NCBI RefSeq assembly: GCF_900129225.1
Contig: NZ_FQUG01000003.1
Span: 186,001 to 250,000 of the forward strand
From: Schwartzia succinivorans DSM 10502
GTDB lineage: Bacteria > Bacillota > Negativicutes > Selenomonadales > Selenomonadaceae
DNA: 64,000 nt
Reading direction: 5' to 3'
Positions 5,831 to 57,050 of this stretch are shown here, one piece after another; the first letter of the stretch is position 1; every line of letters starts with the position of its first letter. The notes beneath the pieces were generated by a model. It did no database searches, was not told where the DNA came from, and worked only from the letters and a program-made list of their open reading frames with translations. Position numbers and translations under genes: made by a program.

Positions 5831-5859
5831 TTGACAATGATTTTGTCCCGTGCTATTCT
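5831..5859 (+). promoter_or_regulatory. Promoter upstream of the cobalamin riboswitch
   Basis: Consensus TTGACA (5831-5836), 17-bp spacer, TATTCT (5854-5859). Initiation near 5866 precedes the aptamer. Confidence 0.8.
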
Positions 5860-5916
5860 TGCAATGTAATCGGGATATGGACATCCCGTAAGACTCTGAA
5901 AAGTGAACATAGTTTG

Positions 5917-6062
5917 AATCAGGTGTCAGCGACTTAATAGAAAAGTTGGTAGAAGCCAACGCGGTCCCGCCACTGTAACAGAGAGTTCTTCGGCATAAGC
6001 CACTGGATATTCCGGGAAGGCGCCGAAGGATGATGACCTGGAGCCAGGAGAACTGCCTGATT
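5917..6062 (+). promoter_or_regulatory. Cobalamin (adenosylcobalamin-type) riboswitch aptamer
   Basis: The B12 box GAGCCAGGAGAACTGCC (6041-6057) and the core GCCACTGTAAC (5979-5989 region) are both present. Closing helix P1 is formed by AATCAGGT (5917-5924) and GCCTGATT (6055-6062). Hairpins with arms TTGGT/GCCAA and a CTTCGG-containing stem lie at the expected places. An intrinsic terminator follows at 6144, consistent with B12-dependent termination of the downstream unit (DnaA-N-like gene, cbiK and the nitrogenase-like genes). Confidence 0.93.
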
Positions 6063-6143
6063 GACAATCACCGGTTGACCTACGAGCGATGGGAAGGGGA
6101 TTTGACAGACAGCGTCTGTTCTATTGGCGTACTCTGTAATCAC

Positions 6144-6176
6144 GACTCTTTTCCGTTCGAGGGAAAGAGTCTTTTA
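6144..6176 (+). terminator. Riboswitch expression-platform terminator
   Basis: GACTCTTTTCC (6144-6154) pairs with GGGAAAGAGTC (6161-6171) around GTTCGA, then TTTTA. It lies 80 bases after the B12 aptamer. Confidence 0.8.
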
Positions 6177-6419: not shown

Positions 6420-6758
6420 ATGCAGAATAACGGAACAGGATTGGCTGCAGATTTGCAGATAACGGCTGAGACGCCTATTACGGATGATCCGAACATTTCT
6501 ATCGAAAAACGCACTCCGCTGGAGGTCCGTCTTCAGGAGACCCGCCCTGAGCTTATAGGCGCGTTGAAGACGCTTAAGGAAAAAATAGGTGAGGAAAGCT
6601 TTAATAAATTCGTTGAGCCTCTCAACAATGTTACCCGAAGCGGTGGTATGCTTCTTCTGGTTGCAGAGGATTTGCGGCAGAAGTCTCTTTTGGAGCGTGA
6701 TTATATTCCGCAGATAAAAGAGGCCTTTGAGGTGCAGGTCGTCCGTATTGTTGTCTGA
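6420..6758 (+). CDS. Stand-alone DnaA N-terminal-domain-like protein
   Basis: A 112-residue protein. Residues about 45-112 resemble the DnaA N-terminal (domain I) fold: a first helix LKTLKEKIGEESFNKFVEPL, a strand pair around GGMLLLVAEDL, then RDYIPQIKEAF and a final strand VQVVRIVV. DnaA domain I mediates self-association and binds helicase or DnaA regulators; nothing here resembles the AAA+ or DNA-binding domains. The first 40 residues are polar and probably disordered. GAGAGGAGAT precedes the ATG. It lies 22 bases before cbiK, downstream of the B12 riboswitch. The function in this context is unknown and the assignment rests on pattern similarity. Confidence 0.6.
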   Translation: MQNNGTGLAADLQITAETPITDDPNISIEKRTPLEVRLQETRPELIGALKTLKEKIGEESFNKFVEPLNNVTRSGGMLLLVAEDLRQKSLLERDYIPQIKEAFEVQVVRIVV

Positions 6759-6780
6759 TTTTGGAAGACGAAGGTAGGAG

Positions 6781-7734
6781 ATGCTTGCATTGCAGGGCAA
6801 TTGTCATGCGAAATATATAATGCATCCTGAGGTCAGAAACGTGACAATGGCGCTTCGCCATGCCACGCAAATAGGAGTCCTGTGCTATGATACACCGGAG
6901 CTGCAGGGGCTTCCCGATAAGGATGCTATTCTTGTTATGAGCTTTGGTACGACTGTGACTGACGCACGCCGTACAACTATAGAAAAAACTGTAGAGGACA
7001 TACAGCAGAATCATCCTGATGTTAAGGTTGTGCTGGCATTTACCTCAAACATTGTTATTGAACGTATTGCCGAGAGGGAAGGAAAACGTTATCCGCTGCC
7101 TGAGGAGGCGCTGCATGCGTTGAAGGCAGAAGGATATACGCGTGTTGCTATGACGACGCTTGACCTCTTTCCGGGGATTGAATACACCTATGATACGAGT
7201 GTGTTCCATCTCTACAAGGCCGAGTTCAAGCGTGCAACCATGGGAACACCGCTCATTTACTGGATGGGACAGCATGGGCGCCGTGATGATGCCATGGATT
7301 TTGTGAAGGCGGTAGAAACACAGTTCCCGGAGCGTGAGCCCCACGGAGGCGTGCTTCTTATGGCACACGGTTCTCCGCATCCTTCAAATGCGTTTTACGA
7401 TACGATTCAGAGCCGATTGATGCAGCTTGGCTTCAGGAATGTTTATGTCTACACGGTGGAGGGCCGTCCTAATCTTTCGGACGTTGTGCCGTATCTGAAA
7501 CGGGCAGGCGTTCAGAAGATTACTCTGATGCCGCTCATGATGGTCGCCGGAACCCATGTCAAAAAGGATATGATGGCCGATAACCCTAAAAGCCATAAGG
7601 TTCAGCTCGAAGCGGCAGGCTTTGAGGTTAATCCGTATCTGAAGGGACTCGGTGAAAATGAAGCCGTGCGCAGGATGTATGTCGAGCGCGCGGATGAAGC
7701 TTATGAATATCTGAAGGACAGCGGAAAAAAGTAA
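6781..7734 (+). CDS. cbiK: CbiK-family sirohydrochlorin metallochelatase, cytoplasmic paralogue
   Basis: CbiK-type chelatases insert Co2+ into sirohydrochlorin in the anaerobic B12 pathway. The 317 residues contain the family metal ligands: His196 in MAHGSPH, Glu227 in YTVEG and His259 in MMVAGTH. No signal peptide is present, so it acts in the cytoplasm. It is a close paralogue of the secreted protein at 12836, similar even over the segment before the catalytic domain (HPEVRNVTMALRHATQIGVL here). The metal-site loop differs (AGTHVKKDM versus AGDHATNDM). The Shine-Dalgarno AGGTAGGAG is too close to the ATG at 6781, so the TTG at 6790 may be the real start. It is followed by nitrogenase-like genes. 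Confidence 0.9.
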   Translation: MLALQGNCHAKYIMHPEVRNVTMALRHATQIGVLCYDTPELQGLPDKDAILVMSFGTTVTDARRTTIEKTVEDIQQNHPDVKVVLAFTSNIVIERIAEREGKRYPLPEEALHALKAEGYTRVAMTTLDLFPGIEYTYDTSVFHLYKAEFKRATMGTPLIYWMGQHGRRDDAMDFVKAVETQFPEREPHGGVLLMAHGSPHPSNAFYDTIQSRLMQLGFRNVYVYTVEGRPNLSDVVPYLKRAGVQKITLMPLMMVAGTHVKKDMMADNPKSHKVQLEAAGFEVNPYLKGLGENEAVRRMYVERADEAYEYLKDSGKK

Positions 7735-7738
7735 AGAG

Positions 7739-7768
7739 GAGCCTCTGTGAATACAGGGGCTTTTCTTG
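7739..7768 (+). terminator. Weak terminator or attenuator between cbiK and the Fe-protein gene
   Basis: AGCCTCTGT pairs with ACAGGGGCT across GAAT and is followed by TTTCTTGTT. It could reduce read-through from cbiK into the nitrogenase-like genes. Confidence 0.5.
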
Positions 7769-7800
7769 TTCTACAGAAAAACGGCAGGAGGCTGCGGTAT

Positions 7801-8613
7801 ATGAAGAAAATCGCGTTTTACGGAAAAGGCGGAATAGGGAAATCGACGACAGCATCGAATGTTTCTGCGGCATTCAGTGAAATGGGTAAATGTACGGCGC
7901 AGATTGGCTGTGATCCGAAAAATGATTCCACACGTCTTCTTCTTGGACATATCTGCAGACAGACAGTTCTTGACCTCGAACGTGAACGCCGCGGAGGTGA
8001 AATCGCGGTGGAGGAAATTGTACACAAGGGCTGGAATGATATACTCTGCATTGAGGCCGGCGGGCCTGAGCCGGGAGTTGGCTGCGCGGGACGCGGAATC
8101 ATCGTGGCACTGCAGCGGCTTAAGGCTCTTAAGGCATTGGAAAATGTTGATGTTGCTTTGTATGATGTTCTTGGAGATGTGGTATGCGGCGGATTCGCAC
8201 TGCCGATACGTGAAGGTTATGCCGAGGAAATATATATCGTTTCATCGGGCGAGCTGATGTCTCTTTACGCGGCTAATAATATCGCGAAGGGAATACGGAA
8301 ATTTGCTGTCCGGGGTTCTGTAAAGCTCGGGGGAATAATAGGAAACAGCCGAAATGTGCCTCTTGAAAAGGAGCTTTTGGAGGAATTTGCCGAAAAGCTT
8401 GGTACTAAGCTTATTGCCTTTATACCCCGCGACAACGTGGTGCACGATGCGGAAATTCATCGTCAGACAGTGCTTGCCTTTGCGCCTGACAGCAGTCAGG
8501 CTGAGATTTATCGGAAGCTTGCTGCGGATATAGATAAAAATGAAAAGCTTATAATACCAACGCCGATGGAGTTTGAGGAGCTTGAAGGGCTGGTGGAGAA
8601 ATATGGCAATTGA
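7801..8613 (+). CDS. Nitrogenase iron protein-like ATPase (NifH/BchL/CfbC superfamily)
   Basis: A homodimeric ATP-driven electron donor that reduces a nitrogenase-like partner. In 270 residues all NifH hallmarks are visible: P-loop GKGGIGKST (8-16), [14 protein letters not shown] (37-49), and the two [4Fe-4S] ligands Cys95 ([13 protein letters not shown]) and Cys129 ([11 protein letters not shown]). The ATG at 7801 follows GCAGGAGG by ten bases; the longer frame from 7747 is not used. Its stop overlaps the start of the next gene, and the two partner genes follow immediately. No nifE, nifN, nifB or other cofactor genes are in the window, so dinitrogen fixation is unlikely. The electron acceptor is presumably the 8603/9903 pair. 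Confidence 0.93.
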
Positions 8614-9910
8614 AACAAAGCGTGTGCTGAAATGCCGCAGGGTCGCATCCAGCAGCTGCACTATGACAGGAGTATGGCGTGCTCTCTGCTATGTGGATGG
8701 CGCGGTGGTTATATATCACAGTCCGAGAGCCTGCGCGCATATTGCAAGGCGTATGGATACCAGCTCCTTCTGCCGTCTCATAAAGGATGCGCCTGAGGAA
8801 ACGAGGCTTAGAAGTATACCTCTTCTGTCCAGCGATTTGACTGATGAGGAAGCGGTGTTTGGCGGGGAGGAACGTTTGCGCCGTGCTGTGCGGTATGCCT
8901 ATGAAAAATATAATCCAAAGGCGGTATTCATAGCCAACTCCTGTGTATCGGGCGTAATCGGGGATGATACGGATGCGGTGGCGGAGGAAATGACGGAGAA
9001 GCTTGGCATACCTGTCATTGATACGGCTCATCATGGATTTTTGGACGGAGAATATTTTGACGGTTATCTTGATGCTGCACGCATTCTGGTGCAGCGCTTT
9101 ATGAAGCCGCAGGAAAAAATACCGGGGACAGTGCTGCTCTTTGGAGACTGCGGCGGCCTTTTTGGAGAATACACACGGGAAATGCGGCGGTTGCTGAATT
9201 ACTTCGGGCTTAAGATAAGCGGGCAATTTCCATCATATATGTCACTTTCGGAGCTTGAAAAAGCACCTTCGGCAGCACTGACTGTCGTAATAGGCCGTTC
9301 TGAGTCAGATAAACGTCAGCAGCATTTCGCGGCTGTCGGTGAGGAATTTTCCGATAAGTTCGGCATACCGTGTTTTTCGGAGCTTTATCCTGTGGGCTAT
9401 GCAAAGACAATGGAGTGGATTGAAGGGTTCGGAAAATTTCTGGGTATGGAGGAGGCTGCTGAGACTGCCGCAAAAGAGGAAGAACAGAGGTTTATGGCGT
9501 ATATTGACGAGGCTGCGAAGACTCTCAGAGGGAAAAAGGTTGTTTACTGCGCAGGACGTGCGGCTGAATTTTTCCAACCTCAGACAACACTGTTTCTTAT
9601 AGAAAAGCTTGGTATGAAGCTTCTGGGCATTGAGCTTTTTGATTCACAGGACAAAGAAGGGCTGCTTAAGAAAGAAGAAAAGCTCAGAGCCCTCACGGAC
9701 GCACCAATTCTTTCAGGTGATGTATTTGAAAAGGCTGTGATGGAATCGGATGTTGTCCTCACTACACATGAGCTGGTGAATACTAATGTGCGGCAGGTAT
9801 TTCTGCCATGTGTAGCAGGGGCAGGATGGACAGGCGAGAAGGAAGTCATGGATGCGATGGTGCGCGTTATGCACCGGGCACTCTCAAGAGGAGGGCTTAT
9901 ATATGCCTGA
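8603..9910 (+). CDS. Nitrogenase component-I-like protein, NifD/NifE-type subunit
   Basis: A 435-residue member of the oxidoreductase/nitrogenase component 1 family. Three cysteines sit at the spacing of P-cluster or [4Fe-4S] ligands: Cys19 (ASSSCTMTG), Cys44 (SPRACAHIA) and Cys114 ([11 protein letters not shown]). They match Cys62, Cys88 and Cys154 of NifD in motif context. The ATG at 8603 overlaps the Fe-protein stop and follows GGTGGAG; the frame continues upstream to 8573 but without a better start. I cannot identify FeMo-cofactor ligands. With its partner at 9903 it should form a heterotetramer reduced by the 7801 product. CfbD, BchN/BchB, BchY/Z and MarD/K are relatives; the substrate is unknown. 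Confidence 0.87.
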
Positions 9911-11198
9911 TATGGAAAATTTCAGTGAGTTCTGCGGTATGCAGGATGAATGCGCCCTTGCCGGAGCGGCTGCTTTTTTCGCCGGTATCCCTGATGCCGC
10001 TGTCGTTATCAACGGTCCGTTGTGGTGCTATTATTATGCCATGCGTCATATAGAAATGAACGAACCGCTTATCTCCAAGAGAATGCTCTGCACACAGCTG
10101 GATAACGAAGCAATTGTATTTGGAAGTGAGGAGTACCTCAGGGATACGCTTGCTCCGTATGCGGAAAAGCCTCCCTCTGTTCTCTGTATCGCAAATAACT
10201 GCTCTGCAAGTCTTATCGGTGATGATGTGCTTGGTATTGCAAGGGAGCTTGGAATATCCTGCCCTATTACTGCGCCCGAAAGCGGAGGACTTATAGGCGG
10301 ATTCGCGGAGGGATGGCAGAAGGCATCACTCTCGTTGCTTGATGAAGTGAATTTCGAAGCGAAAGAAAAAATACAATCCGCAGTAAATCTTATGGGAGTG
10401 ACAGGCGGGTATTATAACGGTCTTGAGGATGCAGATGAGCTGAAAAGGCTTCTGACACTGGCAGGATATCAGGTGCAGGCTTGTCCGGGAGCAGGCATGG
10501 CATTTGCGGATTTTTCAAAGCTTTCACGTGCGTCGCTTAATATTGTTGTACACCGTGAGCTGGGAATGCCGCTTGCGAGGAAGCTTCATGAAATGTTCGG
10601 TACACCGTATATAGCACCGCTTCCTCCTTATGGCATAAGCGGTACACGTCAGTGGATGGACGCTGTAAATGATGCTCTTGAAGCTCCTGCAAAATCTGAC
10701 TTTGAATCTGTATGCGCAAAAACGGAGCAGCGTATTTTTCTTCGAATCGGTGAACTGAAAGGCATTTGGGACGAGCTTTGGTATGATGAGGCAATAGTTT
10801 CGGGCACTGAAACATCTGCAGCTGCGTTCGCACAGGCACTGCGCGGAGAGTGGGCGGATATAGGACGGCTTACGCTTATTCATCCTGCAGGCAAAAAGCC
10901 TGAAAATTACAGCGCAGCCGATGATATCCTCGACGCAGGGAAAGACATTGATGAAATCAAAAAGCGTTTTTCCGACATGAAGCAGGGAATTGTAGCTGCA
11001 TCAAGCAACGAAACAACACAACTTACAAATTTTACCGACGGGAAAATCGAAGTTTTTCCTATAGCATACCCGGTTTTTGACAGCATGAAGCTGTCTGATG
11101 CGCCTTTTATGGGACTTCGCGGTGCAGCGTATGTACAGGAGGTTCTTTGGAATGCGAAGATACATGAAATTGCAAGAAATGTCGCTTCTGAAAAATAA
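9903..11198 (+). CDS. Nitrogenase component-I-like protein, NifK/NifN-type subunit
   Basis: The 431-residue partner of the preceding protein. Its cysteines Cys17 (MQDECALAGA), Cys42 (INGPLWCYYY) and Cys100 (IANNCSASLIGDD) again fit the three-ligand pattern, so the pair could hold a shared cluster with six cysteines. The C-terminus (FPIAYPVFDSMKL, MGLRGAAYVQEVLWNA) resembles the NifK/NifN end (GYPIFDR, GYRGA). The start ATG lies inside the last codons of the upstream gene, so translation is coupled. The two subunits are of similar size and clearly paralogous. Together with the Fe protein this is a three-gene H-D-K set, unlike CfbCD, which has a single D-type subunit. Confidence 0.87.
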   Translation: MPDMENFSEFCGMQDECALAGAAAFFAGIPDAAVVINGPLWCYYYAMRHIEMNEPLISKRMLCTQLDNEAIVFGSEEYLRDTLAPYAEKPPSVLCIANNCSASLIGDDVLGIARELGISCPITAPESGGLIGGFAEGWQKASLSLLDEVNFEAKEKIQSAVNLMGVTGGYYNGLEDADELKRLLTLAGYQVQACPGAGMAFADFSKLSRASLNIVVHRELGMPLARKLHEMFGTPYIAPLPPYGISGTRQWMDAVNDALEAPAKSDFESVCAKTEQRIFLRIGELKGIWDELWYDEAIVSGTETSAAAFAQALRGEWADIGRLTLIHPAGKKPENYSAADDILDAGKDIDEIKKRFSDMKQGIVAASSNETTQLTNFTDGKIEVFPIAYPVFDSMKLSDAPFMGLRGAAYVQEVLWNAKIHEIARNVASEK

Positions 11199-11239: not shown

Positions 11240-11261
11240 GGGCATGTAAAAGAAAATATTT

Positions 11262-11335
11262 CTTTGCAGGACTGACGGATAAGTGGAATTGACCACATGT
11301 ACTGCAAAGTGAATCAGCCGACCGTCTGGGCAGAG
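11262..11335 (+). promoter_or_regulatory. ZTP (pfl-motif) riboswitch aptamer
   Basis: P1 is formed by CTTTGCAG (11262-11269) and CTGCAAAG (11302-11309), enclosing GGACTGACGG and the hairpin GTGG-AATTGA-CCAC (11283-11296). The conserved 3' part GCCGACCGTCTGGGCA (11317-11332) matches the pfl-motif end CCGCCUGGGCA. The P3 strand is also the 5' arm of the following terminator, as in known ZTP riboswitches that switch on when ZMP or ZTP accumulates. Confidence 0.85.
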
Positions 11336-11357
11336 AACTTGTGCCCGGACGGTTTTT
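11322..11357 (+). terminator. ZTP riboswitch terminator
   Basis: CCGTCTGGGCA (11322-11332) pairs with TGCCCGGACGG (11342-11352), one wobble, then TTTTT. Confidence 0.9.
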
Positions 11358-12835: not shown

Positions 12836-13840
12836 ATGAAAAAAGGTTTTAAAAAGTATGTCGCAGCAGCTGCTGCAGTCGCATCGCTGTTTTCTTTTCA
12901 GCTGACAAGTGAGGCCGCTTACCAGCTGAGCAGCGAGGTAAAGGATGCTACGCCGGCTCTCCTGCAGGCAGCACAGATTGGTGTTCTCACGAACGAGAAC
13001 CCTGAGCTTCAGGAGCTTGAGAACAAGGATGCAATCGTTGTTATGAGCTTCGGAACGACATACAAGGAAACACGTGCAAAGACGATCGACGCTACGGTAA
13101 AAGAGATTCAGGCAGCTCATCCTAACACAAAGGTTGTTGTTGCTTTCACATCCCATATCATCATCGACCGCATTCAGGCAAAAGAGGGCATCAAATATCC
13201 GACACCGGAGGAAGCTCTCGACCAGCTGAAGGAGGAAGGCTACTCCCGTGTAGCACTGACATCTCTCCAGCTCTTCCCGGGAATGGAGTATGCTTATCAG
13301 ACGGCTGTATTCAACCTCTATAAGAACAACTTCAAAAAGATGACAATGGGTACACCTATCATGTACTGGATGGGACAGGAAGAACAGCGTGATGATATTG
13401 CTGAGTTTGTTCAGGCTATTAAGACGCAGTTCCCGAAACAGGGCAAGCAGGATGCAATCCTTCTCCTTGCACACGGCACACCGCATCCGTCCAATGCTTA
13501 CTACTCTGTAATCCAGAACCGCATCAATCAGGCTGGTCTGAAGAATGTATATCTCTACACGGTTGAAGGCTGGCCTTCCCTCGACGATATCATTCCGCAG
13601 CTCAAGGCAGCTGGCATCAAGCATGTTACGCTCATGCCGACGATGATGGTTGCAGGCGACCATGCTACGAATGATATGGCAGGCGACGAGCCGGATTCCC
13701 ATAAATCCATCCTTCAGGCTCAGGGCTTCAAGGTTGACGCTTACATCCACGGTCTTGGCGAGAACGAAGCTGTCCGCAAGATGTTCGTAGAGCGTGCAAA
13801 TGAATCCTGGGATCACCTTCAGGGAAAAATTGCTGAATAA
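12836..13840 (+). CDS. cbiK: Secreted CbiK-family metallochelatase
   Basis: A 334-residue CbiK homologue with an N-terminal signal peptide (MKKGFKKY, hydrophobic stretch, cleavage near residue 27 after TSEA), so it is predicted to be periplasmic. Metal ligands of the family are intact: His213 (LAHGTPH), Glu244 (YTVEG) and His276 (MVAGDHATNDM). A periplasmic CbiK is known in Desulfovibrio vulgaris (CbiKP), which binds haem and has been proposed to work in metal or haem handling. The promoter carries the same MerR-type operator as the following receptor operon, so the two are likely induced together. It has its own terminator, and a cytoplasmic paralogue lies at 6781. Confidence 0.93.
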   Translation: MKKGFKKYVAAAAAVASLFSFQLTSEAAYQLSSEVKDATPALLQAAQIGVLTNENPELQELENKDAIVVMSFGTTYKETRAKTIDATVKEIQAAHPNTKVVVAFTSHIIIDRIQAKEGIKYPTPEEALDQLKEEGYSRVALTSLQLFPGMEYAYQTAVFNLYKNNFKKMTMGTPIMYWMGQEEQRDDIAEFVQAIKTQFPKQGKQDAILLLAHGTPHPSNAYYSVIQNRINQAGLKNVYLYTVEGWPSLDDIIPQLKAAGIKHVTLMPTMMVAGDHATNDMAGDEPDSHKSILQAQGFKVDAYIHGLGENEAVRKMFVERANESWDHLQGKIAE

Positions 13841-14035: not shown

Positions 14036-15988
14036 ATGAAAATCTTATCAGAGCTGAAGGAAAGGGCGGCAATGCGCCGTCTCACGGGAGCTGTATTGGC
14101 TACAGCGGTTTTTGGATGCGCAATGGGGAGCGTATACGCGGCTGAAGAAACTAAAGCAGCGGCTGAAGAAAAGGCAGCTGCGGCAGCAGAAGAACCGATT
14201 GATGAGTACACGCTTTCCGAGACAGTGGTTACGGCGGAGAGGATTCCGACGGAACGCATGAATACGCCGGCAAATATCAGCGTCATCACATCAAAGGATA
14301 TAGAAGCTAATCACTATGTTGATGTTGTTGAAGCACTGTCTCAAGTTAATGGCGTAGTTGCCAGCCATCAGGGAGGTTTTGATGGAGTTGCTATTAACGG
14401 TGATGAGCGTGTTGTCGTTATGGTTGATGGACGCCGTCTTAATAACGATCAAATTCTTCCTTCTGGCAAAGGCCGCGTAGACCTTAAAATGATTCCAACG
14501 CTGAAGAATATTGACCGCATTGAGGTAGTAAAGGGCGGTTCTTCCGCGCTTTACGGCAGCGATGCTGTCGGCGGTGTAATTAATATCATCACAAAACGCG
14601 GCAGCAAAAAACCTCAGACTACTCTTGACGTAAACATGGGCTCCTGGGGAACATACAATTATGAGATTGCTACACAAGGCTCCGACAATGATTTCAGCTG
14701 GTTTGTATCCGGCAGCCTTCAGAAGCAAAATCATTTACGCTATAAGTTGGATGGCGAATCTCACAATACACCTCACAGTGACAAGGATAATAATAGTTTT
14801 GTAGTACGTCTTGACCAGAACCTTGACGAAGCAAGCTCGGTTCGATTCAATTTTGAACATAAGACAGTACATGAGGGAATGTACTTTAATGAACTCAATC
14901 CTAGCGAGTGGCTTCCGCAAAAAGACGAACCGTTAGTTGAGATCTTTAATAACGTTGCTCTCTCATACAACTTTAAAGAAAATAAAAAAACACCTGGTTA
15001 TTTAAGGGTGTTTAACAATTATAAAGGAACGTATTTTCAGGGTTCGTATGATACACGACTCTTTGGTGCTGATTATCAGAATGGCTGGGAGTTAGGTGAG
15101 CATACTGTTGTAGCCGGTGCAGAATGGCATGAGAGCCGTTCTACTAATAAAGCGTCAGGATATGAAGACGAAAAACTCAGGGATATATCGGGTTATGTGC
15201 AGGATACATGGAAATTAGGCGATAAATGGTCACTCGTTCCTGGGGTTCGTGTAAATAACCATAATCGTTACGGGACACACTGGTCTCCGAAGATTGCGGT
15301 TAATTATCGCGCTGATAAAAAGACTCAGTTGTATGCATCTTGGGGTCGTGTGTTCCAGGCACCTAGTGCAGATGACTTGTTTTATACGAATGCGGGCAAG
15401 CGAAGTAATGTGGACTTGAGACCAGAAACAGGGTATACAGAAACCATAGGCATTAACCACTGTTTTGATGATGCTACGAGCGTAAGCTTCAGCGTGTTCC
15501 AGAGTCAGCTTCATGATGCTATTACTTGGGCACCTGTTGGTGGCGTTTGGTGGCCCAGCAACGTCAATAAAGAAAAACGCCGCGGACTTGATTTTACAGT
15601 AAAACGTCGTATCAGTCCAATTTGGGACATTGACCTTGGGTATTCATACACGAGCATACGTCAGACAGATGCTACAGGTGATTTGGCATATTATGGTAAA
15701 AATCTCAAACCGAATGGCTATCATGTCGCACTGAAATATCATCAGGGTGCATGGAAAGCTGGTCTTTACACGAACTATAACACAGGAATTGATACAAGTT
15801 TGGCGCTCGCACGTCATGCGGCACTGGTTGACCTTAACGTAAGTTATGATGTTAATGCTGCCACCACGATTTATTTCAAGGCGTTAAATCTTTTCAATCA
15901 GGAATATTCGGCATATCCAGGAGGCAAAGGCAGTTACTATCCAGGCAATTGCCGATTCTTCCAGCTGGGTGTAACATATACGTTCTAA
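14036..15988 (+). CDS. TonB-dependent outer-membrane receptor 1
   Basis: A 650-residue receptor. The signal peptide (LTGAVLATAVFGCAMGSVYA) is followed by an Ala/Glu-rich linker, a TonB box-like DEYTLSETVVTAER, a plug domain (VVEALSQVNGV, IDRIEVVKGGSSALYGSDAVGGVINIITKRG) and a 22-strand-type barrel ending in a terminal aromatic residue (FFQLGVTYTF). It resembles BtuB and haem/siderophore receptors; the ligand cannot be assigned. The ATG at 14036 follows AAAGGAGAT. It heads an operon with an ABC importer and the ExbB-ExbD-TonB motor under a MerR-type promoter. The barrel-encoding part from about 14720 looks more AT-rich than its neighbours. Confidence 0.92.
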   Translation: MKILSELKERAAMRRLTGAVLATAVFGCAMGSVYAAEETKAAAEEKAAAAAEEPIDEYTLSETVVTAERIPTERMNTPANISVITSKDIEANHYVDVVEALSQVNGVVASHQGGFDGVAINGDERVVVMVDGRRLNNDQILPSGKGRVDLKMIPTLKNIDRIEVVKGGSSALYGSDAVGGVINIITKRGSKKPQTTLDVNMGSWGTYNYEIATQGSDNDFSWFVSGSLQKQNHLRYKLDGESHNTPHSDKDNNSFVVRLDQNLDEASSVRFNFEHKTVHEGMYFNELNPSEWLPQKDEPLVEIFNNVALSYNFKENKKTPGYLRVFNNYKGTYFQGSYDTRLFGADYQNGWELGEHTVVAGAEWHESRSTNKASGYEDEKLRDISGYVQDTWKLGDKWSLVPGVRVNNHNRYGTHWSPKIAVNYRADKKTQLYASWGRVFQAPSADDLFYTNAGKRSNVDLRPETGYTETIGINHCFDDATSVSFSVFQSQLHDAITWAPVGGVWWPSNVNKEKRRGLDFTVKRRISPIWDIDLGYSYTSIRQTDATGDLAYYGKNLKPNGYHVALKYHQGAWKAGLYTNYNTGIDTSLALARHAALVDLNVSYDVNAATTIYFKALNLFNQEYSAYPGGKGSYYPGNCRFFQLGVTYTF

Positions 15989-16024: not shown

Positions 16025-16885
16025 ATGATGAAATGTGTGTTAACCGCAGAGAAGCTGTCCGTGGGGTATTCTACGGACAGTCCCGTTCTGCGGGATATTT
16101 GCTTTAATGTGAATAAAGGTGAACTGGTAGGTCTCATAGGCCCCAACGGTGCGGGGAAGTCCACTCTGCTAAAGAGTCTCCGTGGTATTTTAAAGCCTCT
16201 TGAGGGTGAAATTTATATTGCTGACCATATGGCATCAGCTTTGACAGACCATGAATTTGCCTGCCTGACAGCATATCTGCAGCAGGATGTGCATATCGCT
16301 TTTGACTACAGTGTTCGGGAAATCGTGAACACCGGGCGTTATCCGCATTTGCAGTGGTGGGAAAAGGAAGGCATAGAGGACAACAAAATTGTTGACGCAT
16401 GTATGGAGTTTACCCGTGTAGCTGACCTTGCGGATAAGTCCGTTTTGGAGATATCGGGAGGACAGCGGCAGCGTGTTATGCTGGCAAAGGTGCTTGCGCA
16501 GCAGACACCGATTCTCTTTTTGGATGAACCTTCCACGGGACTTGATATTTTCTATCAGGAGGAGATGTTCCGCTTTTGTCAGGAGCTCTGCCGTGCAGGG
16601 AAAACTGTCCTTATGGTGGTTCACGAGCTGAGTCTTGCAGCGAGATTTTGCAGCAGATTGATGCTCATTGGAAATCATAAGGTCATGAAGGATGGAAAGC
16701 CTGAGGATGTTCTCACAGAGGAATATCTTACAGAGGCTTATGGTGTGCCTGTTCGTGTGGTGGAAAATCCGAGGACAGGGCATGTGGAGGTCTATACAGA
16801 ACCTAACGAGAAAAATCCGGAACGAAAGGCTCTTTTGCATGTAATCCAATCCGGTGAAACGGAGGATGTCCATGGTAAAGAATAA
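16025..16885 (+). CDS. FecE/BtuD-type ABC transporter ATPase
   Basis: ATP-binding subunit of a type II importer for Fe-siderophore, haem or cobalamin. In 286 residues: Walker A GPNGAGKST (about 39-47), signature SGGQRQR, Walker B PILFLDEPS and the switch His in MVVHELSLA. The C-terminal 40 residues are a polar extension. The gene lies 37 bases after the receptor and overlaps the next gene, so it belongs to the same operon. Confidence 0.92.
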   Translation: MMKCVLTAEKLSVGYSTDSPVLRDICFNVNKGELVGLIGPNGAGKSTLLKSLRGILKPLEGEIYIADHMASALTDHEFACLTAYLQQDVHIAFDYSVREIVNTGRYPHLQWWEKEGIEDNKIVDACMEFTRVADLADKSVLEISGGQRQRVMLAKVLAQQTPILFLDEPSTGLDIFYQEEMFRFCQELCRAGKTVLMVVHELSLAARFCSRLMLIGNHKVMKDGKPEDVLTEEYLTEAYGVPVRVVENPRTGHVEVYTEPNEKNPERKALLHVIQSGETEDVHGKE

Positions 16886-17909
16886 ATTGTCGTTTCGAGT
16901 CTATATGATTATACTGGTTTTTATTTTGGCAGGAGTAAGTATACTGTCTATGGCATGGGGGCAGATTGATATTCCCCTCAAGACTGCTGCGGCGTTTCTG
17001 TTTAAGTCGATGGGGATTCCAGTCTTAACAGATGTGCCTGTATCACCTGAGCAGCAGGCGGTGCTTCTTCATATTCGTCTGCCACGTACCATAGTCGGTC
17101 TTTTGGTTGGGGCCGGACTTGCGGCATCGGGCACTGTAATGCAGGGGCTTTTCGCTAATCCTCTGGCAGATCCGGGCATAGTCGGCGTGTCCAGCGGTGC
17201 TTCACTGGGAGCGGTTATAGCTATAGCCACAGGCTTCAGCGAGATGAGCATGTTTGCGACTCCGCTCTTTGCGCTCTGCGGCGCGGCATGTGCGGTTATT
17301 CTGACCGTGGGACTTGCAATGCGCCACGGAAAGGTTCCAATGATGATGCTTCTTTTATCAGGCGTCGTGGTCGGAATGCTTTTGGCGGCGGCAACAGCAG
17401 GTATTTTGACAGTGGTAAACGAGCATAAGCTTCAGCAGTATCTTTTCTGGACAATCGGTGGTCTTGATTACAGGCGCTGGGAGCATGTTCTTATGGGAAT
17501 TGGCCCGATTTTGGGCGGTATAGCTGTCATGCTTCTCATGGCGCGTCATCTGAATGTTCTTGTACTTGGTGATATTGAGGCAAAGGCTGTTGGTCTTCCC
17601 GTAGTAAAATACCGGCTTGGCTTTTTGGCACTTGCAGCCATGACGACGTCAGTAGGCGTCTGCATCAGCGGAAACATCGGCTTTGTTGGTCTTGTTGTCC
17701 CTCACATGATGCGTATGCTGATAGGTCCGGACCACAGGTATCTTCTTCCTGCCAGTGTGCTTGCCGGAGCGAGCTTTCTAGTGCTGTGCGACTCCATCGG
17801 ACGTGTTATCGCATCGCCAAGTGAGGTGCGCGTGGGCATTATGACTGCTCTCATCGGAACTCCGTATTTTCTCTATCTGTTGAGAAAAACATATACGACG
17901 ACACGGTAA
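16872..17909 (+). CDS. FecCD/BtuC-type ABC transporter permease
   Basis: A 345-residue inner-membrane permease of the FecCD family with about ten segments. Typical motifs are RLPRTIVGLLVGAGLAASG, NPLADPGIVGVSSGAS and the coupling region GNIGFVGLVVPHMMRMLIGPDHR. Only one permease gene is present, so it should act as a homodimer. I chose the ATG at 16872, six bases after GGAGG; frames starting at 16854 overlap the ATPase gene further. Confidence 0.93.
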   Translation: MVKNKLSFRVYMIILVFILAGVSILSMAWGQIDIPLKTAAAFLFKSMGIPVLTDVPVSPEQQAVLLHIRLPRTIVGLLVGAGLAASGTVMQGLFANPLADPGIVGVSSGASLGAVIAIATGFSEMSMFATPLFALCGAACAVILTVGLAMRHGKVPMMMLLLSGVVVGMLLAAATAGILTVVNEHKLQQYLFWTIGGLDYRRWEHVLMGIGPILGGIAVMLLMARHLNVLVLGDIEAKAVGLPVVKYRLGFLALAAMTTSVGVCISGNIGFVGLVVPHMMRMLIGPDHRYLLPASVLAGASFLVLCDSIGRVIASPSEVRVGIMTALIGTPYFLYLLRKTYTTTR

Positions 17910-17934: not shown

Positions 17935-18954
17935 ATGTTCAAAGCAGGACTTCGATGTCATAGAAGCGTGCTTCCAATGATTCTTCTGCTTGGTCTTTTC
18001 TGCATGTTTTTGACGGGTTGCGGAAAGGAAAAAGAGGAGAAGAGCGCAGGTGAAGCCTCAGGCTATGACATCGTTGATTATCAGGGAACTACGGTACACA
18101 TCCCGGCGAAGCCGAAACGGATTATGTCCTTTATGACAGGCACTGACGAAATCCTTTTGGGGCTTGTAGAGCCCGAGCGAATGGTTGCAATCAACAAGGA
18201 GTTTGCGGATCCGAGCCGTTCCAATGTGTATGAGCTCTCTCAGAGGATACCGCATGTGATTGAAAGAAATCCTCCTGTAGAGCGTATCATATCGCTGCAG
18301 CCGGACCTGATTATCGTTCATGCGTGGATATCTCAGGAGAAGATTGAAACGCTCAGGGAGTTTCATATTCCCGTCGTTGTTGTGAAATCGCCAAAGAGTC
18401 TCGCGGAAATTCATTCTACTATCCGCCTTATCGCGGCGGCAATCGGAGAGCCTGAACGGGGAGAAAAGCTTATTTCAAAGATGGGTGATGAGCTTTCCAA
18501 ACTCAAGGAGAAGATTGATGCGGTTCCTGCAGAAAAACGGGGAAAGCGTATCGCGTTTATTTCGGTCATGGCAGGCTACGGCGGACGGGGAAGTATTTTT
18601 GATGATTATTGCAAATTCGCTGACGCGAAAAATGCGAAGGCTCTCGCCGGTATCAAGGAAGGTCAGGTAATGGCGAAGGAACAGCTTCTGGAAATGAATC
18701 CGGATATACTCATGTTTCCAAGCTATCATGAGCCAAATTCCCCTGAGGAGCGGTATGGCGCGGAATACAGGAGCGATCCCTCGCTGCAGACGCTGACTGC
18801 CATACGGGAAAACCGTGATCTTGAGCCTTGGGCGCATTACGTATATAATATTTCACAGAATTTTGTTTTTGGAGTTCAGGAAATGGCGTATGTGCTTTAC
18901 GGTGACGAGTTTGCGCAGCCGACCACACGCCACCTGAGTGTTGCGGAAGAATAA
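17935..18954 (+). CDS. Periplasmic binding lipoprotein 1 (BtuF/FepB family)
   Basis: A 339-residue substrate-binding lipoprotein. The lipobox LTGC places the lipidated cysteine at residue 29. The cluster A-2 fold is indicated by DYQGTTVHIPAKPKRIM near the mature start and PDLIIVHAWI in the first lobe. It delivers ligand to the 16872 permease. A paralogue at 21865 shares the start of the mature protein, VKDYQGTTVKIPKKPERI, and the C-terminal FVFGVQEMAYVLYGDEFAQ. Confidence 0.92.
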   Translation: MFKAGLRCHRSVLPMILLLGLFCMFLTGCGKEKEEKSAGEASGYDIVDYQGTTVHIPAKPKRIMSFMTGTDEILLGLVEPERMVAINKEFADPSRSNVYELSQRIPHVIERNPPVERIISLQPDLIIVHAWISQEKIETLREFHIPVVVVKSPKSLAEIHSTIRLIAAAIGEPERGEKLISKMGDELSKLKEKIDAVPAEKRGKRIAFISVMAGYGGRGSIFDDYCKFADAKNAKALAGIKEGQVMAKEQLLEMNPDILMFPSYHEPNSPEERYGAEYRSDPSLQTLTAIRENRDLEPWAHYVYNISQNFVFGVQEMAYVLYGDEFAQPTTRHLSVAEE

Positions 18955-18975: not shown

Positions 18976-19611
18976 ATGGAATTGGTTTCAAATGCAGTGC
19001 TTTACTTTCACAAGGGCGGGTTTGTAATGTATCTCCTGCTCGTTTGTTCGTTGTTTGTGGTTTCGATTGCAATCGAGCGCAGTATGTTTTTTTCAAAGAT
19101 GGACGCAGGAAGAAAATTTGCACAGAGCTTTTATGATTTCATGACGCAGCAGAAATATGCAGAAGCAGCAGAAGCAGCAAAAAATGCCAATGGGATTCTC
19201 CCTGAGCTTTTGTACGGAGCAATGAAGCTGGCAGGAAAGAATGAAAGTGCTGTATCGTCATATATGGAGGTACAGTCAGGTATTGCTCTGTCACAGTTCA
19301 GACGCCGTCTTTACTACCTGAATGTCATAGTTACGATGGCTCCGCTTCTCGGACTTCTTGGAACAATCAGCGGTATGATTTCGTCCTTCAGTGTGTTTGA
19401 TATTGATGGAGGAAAGGCAACCGCAATTACCGGGGGCGTCAGTGAGGCTCTTATCGCTACGGCCTTCGGCCTTTGTGTGGCAATCCTTGCGCTGACGGTA
19501 CATTCATATTTCACTCAGCGCATTGAAAATATTGTCACGGATATGGAGCAGAGCTTCTCGCTTGTAGAAGGTGAGAAGGAAAATATCGCAAAAGCCGGGG
19601 TGGGAGCATGA
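18976..19611 (+). CDS. exbB: ExbB/TolQ-family proton channel protein
   Basis: A 211-residue inner-membrane protein with three hydrophobic segments. MotA/TolQ/ExbB-domain motifs are seen: APLLGLLGTISGMISSF and GGVSEALIATAFGLCVAI. With ExbD and TonB it converts proton-motive force into work on outer-membrane receptors. It starts 21 bases after the binding lipoprotein (AATCGGAGG upstream) and its stop overlaps exbD. Confidence 0.93.
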   Translation: MELVSNAVLYFHKGGFVMYLLLVCSLFVVSIAIERSMFFSKMDAGRKFAQSFYDFMTQQKYAEAAEAAKNANGILPELLYGAMKLAGKNESAVSSYMEVQSGIALSQFRRRLYYLNVIVTMAPLLGLLGTISGMISSFSVFDIDGGKATAITGGVSEALIATAFGLCVAILALTVHSYFTQRIENIVTDMEQSFSLVEGEKENIAKAGVGA

Positions 19612-20024
19612 GGCTCAGAGACCGACGCAGCTTTGATAAGCCGGAAGTAATGATTATACCTATGATTGATATCATGTTTTTTCTGCTCGTCTTTTTTATG
19701 ATAAGCACTCTTTACATGGTCAATCTTAAAACGGTTGATATTCAGATGCCTAAGGCGCAGACTGCAGAAATGAAAACAAGTGTTACGTATCTTGTAACAA
19801 TGAAGAAGGATGGTTCCTTATGGCTGGAGGATAAGCCAATAAAGGAAGCAGTACTAATTAAGCGTTCGGAAGAACAGACTAAGCATAATCCAAAATTTTC
19901 CGTGGTTGTTCGGGCGGATGAAGGAGCTGAATATGGGCGTGTAATTACGCTTTTGGACAAGCTGAAGGCTGCAGGTGTTACACGCTTTGGTCTGGCCGCT
20001 GATTCCGGGGGGCAGGCAAAATGA
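19608..20024 (+). CDS. exbD: ExbD/TolR-family protein
   Basis: A 138-residue protein with one N-terminal membrane segment. The essential aspartate lies in MIPMIDIMFFLLVFFM (PMID motif). The periplasmic domain shows the family end (VVVRADEGAEYGRVITLLDKLKAAGVTRFGLA, with long run shown only in part of the domain). It overlaps both exbB and tonB by four bases, so the three are translationally coupled. Confidence 0.93.
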   Translation: MRLRDRRSFDKPEVMIIPMIDIMFFLLVFFMISTLYMVNLKTVDIQMPKAQTAEMKTSVTYLVTMKKDGSLWLEDKPIKEAVLIKRSEEQTKHNPKFSVVVRADEGAEYGRVITLLDKLKAAGVTRFGLAADSGGQAK

Positions 20025-20860
20025 ATGATGCATCAAAGAATGAAGCACAGGCATGGATAGGGTCTGTGCTGCTTCACGTTCTGTTCTTTCTGCTGCTGGC
20101 ATTTGGTGGATTCTTTGCGATTCACAGGGATGATATTCAAAAGCCGATAGATGTCGTGCTGTATGATGCGGATGCAGGTACAGGCCCGGGCGGCGGAGGA
20201 GGTGGGGGAGGCGGTTCCCCTGCACCGAAAGAAAAGGCAGCTGCCCCTGCACCTGCACCTGAGGAAGCAATGGCGGTTTCAAGTGATTCTATACCTGAGC
20301 CGACTCAGGAGGAAAAGACTCCTGAACCAACGCCTGCGACGGAAAACCATCAGACCGATGTGAATTCTGCTGCAGCAGACAGTACGAATGCCAACGTTTC
20401 CGAGGATGGAACAGGTACCGGTGGAAGCGGTACAGGCTCAGGCGGCGGAAACGGAAGCGGTATCGGTGAGGGAACAGGAAGCGGTACAGGGCCGGGCTCA
20501 GGCTCCGGCACAGGCGGAGGTAACGGAAGCGGTGTCGGCACAGGAAACGGAAGCGGCACAGGCGACGGAAATGCAATGCGTCCGAAAAATCCTCCGGTTC
20601 TGCTGGCTGCATCAGAGCCTGTATATCCCGAGCGTCTTCGCAGAGAAGGCGCAGAGGGTAGTGTTTATCTGCGGCTTATCGTAGGTGCTGACGGTTCGGT
20701 TGAGGAAGCATCTGTTTCAGAGTCATCCGGCTATGATGAAATGGATGCGGCTGCGGTCAGTGCGGCGTACGAATACCGCTTTGAGCCTGCTGAGAACGCA
20801 TACGGTGATCCTGTACGCTGTGCCATAAGCACGGCGGTTCATTTCCGTTTGAACTGGTAA
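20021..20860 (+). CDS. tonB: TonB energy-transducing protein with glycine-rich linker
   Basis: A 279-residue protein: N-terminal membrane anchor (SVLLHVLFFLLLAFGGFF), a first glycine run and a Pro/Ala/Glu segment (about 50-110), a long Gly/Ser/Thr-rich linker (about 128-185), and a C-terminal TonB domain from PVYPERLRREGAEGSV to the end. The periplasm-spanning linker is usually Pro/Lys-rich; here a large part is glycine repeats. It overlaps exbD. It could serve both receptors in the window. Confidence 0.93.
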   Translation: MNDASKNEAQAWIGSVLLHVLFFLLLAFGGFFAIHRDDIQKPIDVVLYDADAGTGPGGGGGGGGGSPAPKEKAAAPAPAPEEAMAVSSDSIPEPTQEEKTPEPTPATENHQTDVNSAAADSTNANVSEDGTGTGGSGTGSGGGNGSGIGEGTGSGTGPGSGSGTGGGNGSGVGTGNGSGTGDGNAMRPKNPPVLLAASEPVYPERLRREGAEGSVYLRLIVGADGSVEEASVSESSGYDEMDAAAVSAAYEYRFEPAENAYGDPVRCAISTAVHFRLNW

Positions 20861-20890
20861 GCTTTGTCAATTTGAGAAAGTGTGCGGCAT

Positions 20891-21847
20891 ATGTTGGAGC
20901 TTTTTAATTTTGCAAATGCCCCTGAGGAAATAAACCGTCTTTTTGGAGGAAAAAAAGAAAATCTCGTTTCCTTCATTGAGGGGAATAATCTTGACGGAAT
21001 GGAACTGATGGCGTGTGAGCCGCTTCAGGAGGATTTTCTTGAGCGGAGATATGTCAAAGGCAGTCATCTGATTTTCTGGCCTACTTGGTTTGGCTTTTGG
21101 CGGCAGGATGAGGAACGTCTGAGGCGGGATATTGGTAATGATGAAGCTGTACGTTACATGTACGGCACAGAAAACGTCAGGGAATGGCTTGGTTTTTGGC
21201 GTGATAACATACGCCGCTCCGTAGAGGCAGGAGCAGAGTATCTTGTTTTCCATATTGCTGAATCAGAGCCGTCAGCACTTTCATCAAGGCAGTTTACGGT
21301 TACGGATGAAGAGATAGTTGGTGCTTCAGTGGAGCTGGTAAATTCCCTTTGCAATGAAATCCCTGAGGACTGTCTGCTGCTTTTTGAAAATCTCTGGTGG
21401 CCCGGGCTTACTCTTCTGAAGCCAAGGCTCATGGAGAAGCTTTTGGAGTCGGTTCGTCATAAAAACTGCGGCTTTATGATGGATACGGGACATCTTATGA
21501 ATACAAACCTTGAGCTGCGCAATGAGGCGGAGTCTGTTGACTATGTTCTTGATATATACCGCAGACTTGGCGAACTTCAAAAATATGTCCGTGGAATTCA
21601 CCTGCATCAGTCGCAGTCAGGGGAATACGTTAAGGCCATGATGTCAAAGCATATTGGTAAAGGACCGGGTGAAATTTTTGAGTATATCCGGAACGTGGAC
21701 AGACATCTGCCATTTCGCACGACAGATGTGAAAAGGATATTGGAAGAGGTTCAGCCTGAATATCTTGTACATGAATTTTTGCCGAAGTCCACAGAGGACT
21801 GGAATATGAAGCTGGCAGTACAGCGTCATGCGCTTGGACTTGTATAG
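20891..21847 (+). CDS. TIM-barrel protein of the AP-endonuclease-2 / xylose-isomerase-like superfamily
   Basis: A 318-residue cytoplasmic protein. Motifs of the divalent-metal barrel superfamily are visible: LLLFENLWWPGL (Glu), CGFMMDTGHLMN (Asp, His), RGIHLHQSQSG (His pair) and YLVHEFLP (Glu), which together could bind a metal. The precise enzyme (isomerase, epimerase, hydrolase or other) is not recognisable. It lies inside the uptake operon between tonB and the second binding lipoprotein, so it may process the imported ligand. Start: ATG 20891 preceded by GAGAAAG; a GTG at 20882 is also in frame. Confidence 0.75.
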   Translation: MLELFNFANAPEEINRLFGGKKENLVSFIEGNNLDGMELMACEPLQEDFLERRYVKGSHLIFWPTWFGFWRQDEERLRRDIGNDEAVRYMYGTENVREWLGFWRDNIRRSVEAGAEYLVFHIAESEPSALSSRQFTVTDEEIVGASVELVNSLCNEIPEDCLLLFENLWWPGLTLLKPRLMEKLLESVRHKNCGFMMDTGHLMNTNLELRNEAESVDYVLDIYRRLGELQKYVRGIHLHQSQSGEYVKAMMSKHIGKGPGEIFEYIRNVDRHLPFRTTDVKRILEEVQPEYLVHEFLPKSTEDWNMKLAVQRHALGLV

Positions 21848-21864: not shown

Positions 21865-22854
21865 TTGCAGTACAAAAAAATATGTCTGCTGCTTTGTCTT
21901 TTAATCACCGTTTTATGTCTTGCAGGCTGCGGAGCGGAGAAACATAAGGAACAGAGCGGTGGAATTGAAGTAAAGGATTATCAGGGGACAACGGTAAAAA
22001 TACCAAAGAAGCCCGAACGTATTCTGACGCTTTCAATCTACTCAGATGAAATGGTTTTGGGAATGGTGCCCTCGTCGAAGCTCGTTGCAATCAGTAAATT
22101 CCTTGATGACCCGAAGGAATCGGTTGTTGTTGAGAAGGCAAAGCGTGTTCCGGAAAAGGTCATGGACCCTTCTGTGGAACAGATTATGGGGTGGAAGCCT
22201 GATATCATTATCGCGAATACATGGACAAATATGGAAAAGGTCACGGCACTACGTGAACTTGGTTTTCCTGTTGTAGTAATCGGTCCCGGAAATTCCTATG
22301 CGGACATTCAGGGGGATGTTCGTCTTATTGCGCAGAGTATTTCGGAGGAAGAAAAAGGACAGCAGATTATTGCGAAGATGGATGAGATACGCGACGATAT
22401 CGTGAAAAAGGTGGAAAAGATTCCACCTGAAAAACGGAAGTCCGTGACTCTTCTGTCTGTCATGCGGCAGTATGGCGGGGCAGGGAGTGCCTTTGATGAT
22501 ATGTGCCGCCTTACAGGTGTGCGCAATGCCATAGCTGAGGTTGGCGTGAAGAACGGACAGGTTCTTACAAAGGAGCTTCTGGTCAAATCAAACCCTGATT
22601 ATATTCTTCTTCCAAGCTATGATGACAAGGGAACCTTTGACATTGATGCTTTCATCGCGTCTTATCTTGAGGATCCTTCTCTTGCATCTATGCGTGCAAT
22701 TCAGAACCGTGCGCTGATATTCCCTCGGGAAAGCTATATCTATAATTCCTCACAGGACTTTGTCTTCGGCATGCAGGAGCTGGCCTATGTAGTCTATGGT
22801 GAGGAATTCGCGCAGGAACCGAACCGCCACATATCATTCTCAGGTGAAAAGTAA
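21865..22854 (+). CDS. Periplasmic binding lipoprotein 2 (BtuF/FepB family)
   Basis: A 329-residue paralogue of the 17935 protein. The lipobox LAGC gives a lipidated Cys22, and mature-protein motifs are shared (VKDYQGTTVKIPKKPERI, PDIIIANTW, FVFGMQELAYVVYGEEFAQ). The start is TTG, six bases after GGGAGAGG. No permease or ATPase accompanies it, so it probably shares the 16872/16025 importer and widens ligand range. It is the last gene of the operon before a terminator. Confidence 0.92.
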   Translation: MQYKKICLLLCLLITVLCLAGCGAEKHKEQSGGIEVKDYQGTTVKIPKKPERILTLSIYSDEMVLGMVPSSKLVAISKFLDDPKESVVVEKAKRVPEKVMDPSVEQIMGWKPDIIIANTWTNMEKVTALRELGFPVVVIGPGNSYADIQGDVRLIAQSISEEEKGQQIIAKMDEIRDDIVKKVEKIPPEKRKSVTLLSVMRQYGGAGSAFDDMCRLTGVRNAIAEVGVKNGQVLTKELLVKSNPDYILLPSYDDKGTFDIDAFIASYLEDPSLASMRAIQNRALIFPRESYIYNSSQDFVFGMQELAYVVYGEEFAQEPNRHISFSGEK

Positions 22855-22876
22855 ATATTCAGAGGAAGCGAAGCTG

Positions 22877-22904
22877 ACGGCGTCCGATTTCGGGCGTCGT
22901 TTTT
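22877..22904 (+). terminator. Terminator of the TonB receptor operon
   Basis: ACGGCGTCCGA pairs with TCGGGCGTCGT (wobbles), then TTTTTC. Confidence 0.8.
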
Positions 22905-22936
22905 CTTTTCTGTATCGGAAATTTTACAAAATTTAA

Positions 22937-22955
22937 AATGATTATCAAAATCATT
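22937..22955 (+). promoter_or_regulatory. Fur-like box upstream of receptor 2
   Basis: AATGATT-N5-AATCATT is a perfect inverted repeat within AAATGATTATCAAAATCATT, close to the Fur 7-1-7 consensus (TGATAAT/ATTATCA). It lies 85 bases before the receptor start, suggesting iron-dependent repression. Confidence 0.75.
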
Positions 22956-23039
22956 CTCAAGTCCTATTGTATGAATTGTATTCAGGTAATATTCTTTTTA
23001 TTGTGTAATTCAGAATACAACAGGAGGGAAATTCAGGGA

Positions 23040-57028: not shown

Positions 57029-57050
57029 TTAAGTAGGGGAGAGAAGAGAA

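Follow-up and report, generated by a model that had tools for sequence, protein, structure and literature searches.

A chelatase-linked nitrogenase-like enzyme under cobalamin riboswitch control in Schwartzia succinivorans and other Negativicutes, with a proposed role in corrinoid salvage

Chlorophyll and F430 synthesis and the cleavage of C-S bonds are the known tasks of nitrogenase-like enzymes, and to our knowledge no nitrogenase relative acts in vitamin B12 metabolism. Here, we describe an operon of Schwartzia succinivorans DSM 10502 that is preceded by a cobalamin (B12) riboswitch and encodes a CbiK-type chelatase, a nitrogenase-like Fe protein (H) and two component-1 subunits (D and K; together HDK). 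It lies in a window of 64,000 nucleotides (contig NZ_FQUG01000003.1, positions 186,001 to 250,000), within which all window coordinates are counted. HDK is a new clade of nitrogenase-like enzyme and, judging from the alignments, its family unites all six P-cluster-type cysteines with the loss of the active-site-cluster ligand. We propose, with a probability of about 0.5, that HDK uses ATP to reduce a corrinoid-type ring taken up from outside, is paired with a chelatase and serves corrinoid or cobalt salvage.

The operon and its control region are composed as follows:

5831..5859, + strand: promoter-like site TTGACA-17-TATTCT with TG before the -10, a consensus match only; precedes the riboswitch
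5904..6074, + strand: cobalamin riboswitch aptamer RF00174 (Rfam, 102.4 bits, E 1.7e-24)
6144..6171, + strand: intrinsic terminator after the aptamer, the presumed expression platform (11-bp stem, U tail TTTTAT)
6420..6758, + strand: small open reading frame (ORF), 112 aa, with a weak DnaA N-terminal-domain likeness (E 2.4e-4, under the cut-off)
6781..7734, + strand: cytoplasmic CbiK-type class II chelatase (PF06180, E 2.9e-72)
7801..8613, + strand: Fe protein H, NifH-like (NifH PF00142, E 1.9e-107), with P-loop, Cys95 and Cys129
8603..9910, + strand: component-1 subunit D (PF00148, E 8e-59), Cys19/44/114 kept
9903..11198, + strand: component-1 subunit K (PF00148, E 5e-47), Cys17/42/100 kept

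The aptamer scores above the RF00174 gathering score of 31.5 and is followed by an expression platform. A sequence-only reading of this stretch, which began at position 6420, had placed the operon behind a cobalamin riboswitch and had described a CbiK-type chelatase gene followed by overlapping H-D-K genes. Both descriptions hold: the riboswitch is found just upstream of 6420, and the Pfam matches and gene coordinates confirm the gene order, with D starting 11 nt within H and K starting 8 nt ahead of the end of D. The operon would be made only if adenosylcobalamin is scarce; otherwise the riboswitch and terminator would shut it off. None of the NCBIfam equivalog cut-offs was reached by H, D, K or the CbiK proteins. 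The small ORF at 6420 is no part of the HDK enzyme; a homologue is present at the equivalent place in Schwartzia (locus L053, 9375-9713). DnaA_N-like small proteins of this kind recur near B12-linked genes (window 6420-6758, L053 9375-9713, L065 11582-11944, L089 5740-6090), behind the riboswitch in the window and behind MeaB in L089.

H carries the P-loop at residue 8 (GKGGIGKS), Cys95 (GVGCAGRG) and Cys129 (VVCGGFA), motifs that bear out the complete Fe protein seen in the sequence-only reading. Cys19, Cys44 and Cys114 of D are invariant across 30 relatives and align with NifD Cys62/88/154. Among 28 relatives of K (the alignment omits one locus that had a stop at the coordinates used), Cys17 and Cys42 are invariant and Cys100 is at least 90% conserved, and they align with the NifK/MarK set. 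The three cysteines in a cluster context that had been noticed in each component-1 subunit are thus a 3 + 3 set in the alignments of relatives. HDK belongs to the nitrogenase superfamily by its Fe protein, which has the P-loop and both cluster cysteines, and by its component-1 fold, and it has the six P-cluster-type cysteines (three in D, three in K) expected of Mar and nitrogenase. In Mar, the P-cluster cysteines are at these same six positions, MarD 66/91/158 and MarK 32/56/121 (PMC12552129).

The active site is different. In 30/30 D proteins of the family, the position of the cysteine that holds the active-site cluster (NifD 275, MarD 270) is taken by Gly or some other residue; the cysteine is present in NifD, NifE, MarD and both Treponema relatives. 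A counterpart of NifD His442 is also absent from family D in the alignment, a loss that alone excludes only the nitrogenase site, as MarD uses a different loop (PMC12552129). A convincing NifB was found in only 13/37 carriers, and none in the other 24, the genome of the window included (best 31 bits, cut-off 344). Because the D ligands Cys275 and His442 are gone and NifB is lacking in 24/37 carriers, the HDK active site is predicted to be of neither the Mar nor the nitrogenase type. Most carriers would have an active site without a NifB-derived cluster, in which a P-cluster-type relay is combined with another substrate site, as in dark-operative protochlorophyllide oxidoreductase (DPOR) and CfbCD, both of which bind tetrapyrroles at the substrate site. 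A radical S-adenosylmethionine (SAM) maturase other than NifB is conceivable for HDK by analogy with IsrB, which serves the Isr enzyme and is not NifB-like (PMC11423573).

In a careful maximum-likelihood tree with NifDKEN, BchNB, BchYZ and Mar, the D and K families each formed their own 100/100 clade on a long stem, separate from Nif, Mar and Bch and from the two other nitrogenase-like systems of the same genome. The tree contains no CfbD and no Isr sequences, and the deeper branching order is unsure since the Bch branches are long. A position within the Mar clade had been named beforehand as speaking against a tetrapyrrole reductase; it was looked for, with a Mar reference checked against the solved Mar of R. 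rubrum (475 bits), and HDK fell outside Mar. That HDK is a Mar orthologue is ruled out by its own clades, the lost D cysteine and the lack of NifB in most carriers. Nor does it belong to DPOR or chlorophyllide oxidoreductase (COR), whose equivalog scores were not reached and with whose BchN/B/Y/Z subunits it was not placed. Scores of the D family range from ~980 to 200 bits, followed by a handful at 165-140, and ordinary component-1 paralogues have at most ~130 bits. AlphaFold single-chain models of D and K had a pLDDT (predicted local distance difference test) of 86 and 88, and the top structural matches of the K model were BchB of DPOR, with TM scores up to 0.82.

Two further nitrogenase-like systems are encoded in the genome besides the HDK of the operon. 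At C14:24780-27910 (L016 6780-9910), a NifH-like gene and a gene for a fused D-K protein of 791 aa lie directly before hypF, hypD and hypE. At C13:351273-354595 (L015 6273-9595) there is a solitary third HDK with short subunits, which in the tree is near the C14 system, not near the HDK of the operon.

The HDK family was found in ~75/381 genomes of the class Negativicutes, mostly gut, mouth and rumen bacteria; the carriers include Selenomonas, Centipeda, Mitsuokella, Phascolarctobacterium, Succiniclasticum, Dialister, Sporomusa, Pelosinus, Pectinatus and Veillonella. Pelotomaculum carries the family outside the class. The nearest relative among the genomes surveyed is a metagenome-assembled genome of Schwartzia sp., placed in the same genus (D identity 85%). 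A same-strand B12 riboswitch was present no more than ~1.5 kb upstream of HDK in 13/37 carrier genomes, compared with 0.10 expected (P ~1e-23), and in several Selenomonas-type loci a same-strand riboswitch is farther upstream, with ChlI/ChlD/CobN between riboswitch and H. A link to cbiK and B12 riboswitches confined to one strain had likewise been named in advance as refuting, but the links to riboswitch and chelatase recur across the class, and the class survey rules out a strain-specific oddity. A literature search, outside which most subscription journals lay, gave no description of a B12-riboswitch-controlled HDK family with chelatases.

Genomic context was read from 40 neighbourhoods and 73 named loci. 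Recurrent neighbours of HDK are CobN (PF02514), ChlI- and ChlD-like subunits, CbiZ (PF01955), a SPASM radical SAM protein and a carbon-nitrogen hydrolase, and further FecCD/BtuC permeases, substrate-binding proteins, TonB receptors, a TIM-barrel protein and MerR regulators; CbiK adjoins HDK in a minority of loci. In the 47 full-length named loci, a chelatase subunit gene was present in 33, an uptake gene in 35 and CbiZ in 20. Matches of the SPASM radical SAM gene that some loci have are to peptide maturases and haem-type radical SAM enzymes, all under the cut-offs. The association with CobN is also seen at the level of genomes (70/75 carriers vs 45/306 non-carriers, odds ratio 81), a figure inflated by shared ancestry; the comparison by genus is fairer (27/29 vs 14/73, p 3e-12). 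Carrier counts were transcribed by hand from listings.

In Sporomusa ovata, the operon lies within an island of ~135 kb (G298:C4:484-620 kb, L171-L177) that has 19 B12 riboswitches, some in tandem, and also holds CbiK, CbiZ, CobN, the CobA adenosyltransferase and a homologue of cobalt-precorrin-8 methylmutase. Under the control of the island riboswitches are not only chelatases, CbiZ and TonB receptors but also surface-type proteins of very large size (1700-2150 aa). A CobN gene in three fragments (L172 4577-6382) lies immediately ahead of the HDK riboswitch; the S. ovata genome has intact CobN copies at other places.

The sequence-only reading had tied HDK to CbiK. A chelatase partnership is indeed general, but it is not confined to CbiK: HDK is usually partnered by the class I chelatase CobN/ChlI/ChlD, and the link to CbiK was rejected as a defining feature of the family. 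Compared with solved structures, the CobN neighbour scores 739 bits against CobN, 545 against ChlH and 391 against the haem de-chelatase HmuS. The CbiK of the operon has the PF06180 fold and keeps the two catalytic His (His145 and His207 in Salmonella) but is below the NCBIfam equivalog cut-off for sirohydrochlorin cobaltochelatase (189.6 vs 400 bits). Its motif AGTHVKKD, compared with AGDHxxND in paralogues, suggests an altered specificity; the genome encodes three CbiK-type proteins. Two CbiK-like proteins without the first catalytic His occur beside HDK in other loci (L079 13666-14454, L084 7058-7918), with CNGS/CNGA in place of HG, and these may be binding proteins or decayed chelatases. 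HmuS is CobN-like and strips iron from haem; in cell fractions, NADH lifted its yield from 15% to 71% (PMC12583661). Chelatases of the CobN superfamily are thus able to work in reverse.

Downstream of the operon, the window contains genes for uptake and related functions:

12836..13840, + strand: second CbiK-type protein, presumed periplasmic from a signal-like sequence at its N-terminus (signal judged from sequence only)
14036..15988, + strand: TonB-dependent outer-membrane receptor (top NCBIfam profile vitamin B12 receptor, 175 bits, cut-off 600)
16025..17909, + strand: ATP-binding cassette importer ATPase and FecCD/BtuC-type permease (59% and 64% identity to Selenomonas L057 genes)
17935..18954, + strand: periplasmic substrate-binding protein, BtuF/FecB type (PF01497)
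18976..20860, + strand: ExbB-like, ExbD-like and TonB-like energy transduction proteins, assigned by sequence; homologues adjoin HDK in other loci
20882..21847, + strand: xylose-isomerase-like TIM-barrel protein, near HDK in many relatives
21865..24986, + strand: second substrate-binding protein and second TonB-dependent receptor; homologues adjoin HDK in relatives

The second CbiK-type gene has an equivalent gene order in Schwartzia (L053). In Selenomonas (L057), homologues of the uptake genes at 16-25 kb of the window directly follow HDK, which ties this uptake cluster to HDK. A ZMP-ZTP riboswitch (window 11258-11338, 61 bits) is ahead of a major facilitator superfamily transporter that scores above the NCBIfam L-lactate transporter cut-off, and at 47825-58700 an adhesin-like surface protein of 3067 aa is followed by an apparent outer-membrane partner transporter.

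The genome (G000, 2.66 Mb) has five B12 riboswitches including that of the HDK operon. B12 riboswitches head both clusters for B12 synthesis, whose genes were named by reading their sequences: cbiD, E, T, F, G, H, J, C, A, cobU, cbiP and cbiB at C15:355-366 kb, and cbiL, hemA, hemC, cobA-hemD and hemL on C13. Another (C17:148425-148598; L018 6425-6598) is ahead of genes for methylmalonyl-CoA mutase, a B12-dependent enzyme, and may be an activating switch. Since the cbi clusters are complete, cbiJ included, HDK fills no pathway gap here, and since CbiD is present in 333/381 genomes of the class vs HDK in ~75, HDK is dispensable for de novo B12 synthesis. The idea of the sequence-only reading that HDK substitutes for a reductase of the anaerobic pathway, cbiJ or another de novo step, is thereby ruled out.

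How might HDK work? H would pass low-potential electrons, at the expense of ATP, to an iron-sulfur cluster held by the three D and three K cysteines, and D/K would then reduce a tetrapyrrole, most likely an imported corrinoid, sited where nitrogenase holds its cofactor. At low adenosylcobalamin, the operon and the uptake systems would be made and a corrinoid imported via TonB and BtuFCD-type transport; in relatives that have CbiZ, it would be trimmed by this enzyme. HDK would reduce the ring or its cobalt, and a chelatase would demetallate or remetallate it; in the operon this would be CbiK, and in most relatives CobN/ChlI/ChlD, which this genome also encodes outside the operon. Import, B12 control and chelatase partnership rest on genomic evidence; the corrinoid substrate and the release of cobalt we infer. 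We regard a corrinoid as the probable substrate. That the chelatase acts on the reduced product, thereby releasing or swapping cobalt, is possible but doubtful, and it would be unlikely, if tempting to speculate, that this is the first system removing cobalt from a corrinoid, in which a nitrogenase relative reduces the corrin and CobN/ChlID or CbiK removes or exchanges the metal. The ATP-driven reductase of a metal-tetrapyrrole or corrinoid that the sequence-only reading had suggested is supported insofar as HDK is linked to tetrapyrrole and corrinoid chelatases and to the B12 regulon.

Several observations weigh against this proposal. We know of no precedent for enzymatic cobalt removal from a corrin, and the co-occurrence with CobN is silent on direction, that is, on metal insertion vs removal. 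In the genome of the window, CobN is not linked to the operon (CobN-ChlI-ChlD is on C17, L178), and CbiZ was not found adjoining the operon within the window. Some Acidaminococcaceae loci have no nearby B12 riboswitch, and the D model is nearest to MarD/NifD (TM ~0.6).

Alternatively, HDK could reduce cobalt from Co(II) to Co(I) in corrinoids that are salvaged or newly metallated, for adenosylation by CobA, with the chelatase inserting cobalt earlier. In the aerobic pathway, a Co(II) reductase and an adenosyltransferase act after CobN, the CobN neighbour resembles true CobN and CobA is inside the B12-riboswitch island of S. ovata. We nevertheless consider this improbable: almost every B12 maker of the class does without HDK, a one-electron reduction would hardly seem to call for a two-component enzyme driven by ATP, and no adenosyltransferase is seen directly beside HDK in the window. 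About equally improbable is haem or another non-corrinoid porphyrin as substrate, with reductive iron release or ring opening of an imported porphyrin for anaerobic haem use. The TonB/FecCD-type import and the presumably periplasmic CbiK-type protein of the window would suit it, as would haem binding by the CbiK-like FetB (PDB 9b86) and the iron removal by the CobN relative HmuS (PMC12583661); but control is by B12 and not by haem or iron, the neighbours are CbiZ, a CobN-type and not an HmuS-type chelatase and ECF/CbiQ (energy-coupling factor) transport, and the top receptor profile is that of the B12 receptor, though under its cut-off.

Distinctly improbable is the synthesis of a new metal-tetrapyrrole cofactor, an idea of the sequence-only reading, in which CbiK would make a metal-sirohydrochlorin and HDK would reduce it in analogy to CfbA and CfbCD of the F430 pathway. 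The adjacency of chelatase and nitrogenase-like reductase is reminiscent of CfbA/CfbCD and of the order bchN-bchB-bchH-bchL (L170). Against it, the usual partner CobN acts on corrinoids, no enzyme using a new cofactor and no CfbB/CfbE-like gene were found in these loci, and import is indicated by the uptake genes and CbiZ nearby, which make it more likely that an imported corrinoid is salvaged or processed than that a new metal-tetrapyrrole is made. B12 riboswitches often control B12-independent replacements, and HDK might be a reductase of a non-tetrapyrrole, for a C-S or other bond as in Mar or Isr, that stands in when B12 is short. The best solved-structure matches of D, by sequence and fold, are MarD and NifD, and some loci have a SPASM-type radical SAM gene, IsrB itself being not NifB-like (PMC11423573). 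With D devoid of the cofactor cysteine, NifB lacking in 24/37 carriers, a separate clade and chelatase and corrinoid genes as neighbours, this is very improbable.

The family lies in B12-regulated loci of anaerobes that abound in the gut, mouth and rumen. Several of these rely on B12-dependent propionate formation, and the family bears on how such anaerobes compete for corrinoids and cobalt. If HDK and a chelatase do remove cobalt from corrinoids, B12-hungry anaerobes could mine inactive corrinoids in this way. The six-cysteine set without the active-site ligand also speaks to the relation between the tetrapyrrole-reducing and the N2-reducing members of the superfamily, of which HDK would be a form with the P-cluster ligand set but with a tetrapyrrole replacing the active-site cluster.

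Like DPOR (BchL-BchNB) and COR (BchX-BchYZ), HDK has an ATP-driven Fe protein and a two-subunit component; its K model is nearest to BchB, its D has no ligand for a NifB-type cofactor, and bchH, a class I chelatase gene, resembles in the Bch gene order the cobN beside HDK. In contrast, D and K have six cysteines whereas the aligned BchB and BchZ are without part of that set, and HDK is in separate clades, far under the equivalog cut-offs, B12-controlled and without photosynthesis genes. With MarHDK it shares the layout and all six P-cluster-type cysteines, and MarD is the nearest solved relative of D by sequence; it differs in the missing equivalents of MarD Cys270 and NifD His442, in the lack of NifB/MarB in 24/37 carriers, in its own clade and in corrinoid and chelatase neighbours that replace sulfur genes. 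CfbCD of F430 biosynthesis is also a nitrogenase-like reductase with a sirohydrochlorin-type chelatase partner and no NifB-type cofactor. CfbD, however, is a single-subunit homodimer whereas D and K are distinct subunits in separate clades, the CfbD and CfbC cut-offs are not reached (D 41.7 bits vs 268, H 371 vs 402), no CfbB/CfbE was seen in HDK loci and HDK is not archaeal; the two-subunit component by which the sequence-only reading had set HDK apart from CfbCD is therefore a valid distinction. The partner chelatase of most HDK relatives belongs to the same superfamily (PF02514) as HmuS and the cobaltochelatase CobN, but is nearer to CobN than to HmuS; the papers searched describe no ATP-driven reductase dedicated to either. 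Finally, NifHEN-like proteins beside hydrogenase-maturation genes were described in Firmicutes without nitrogen fixation (Dos Santos 2012). The C14 system of the genome fits this group, and the HDK of the operon is a different clade from it.

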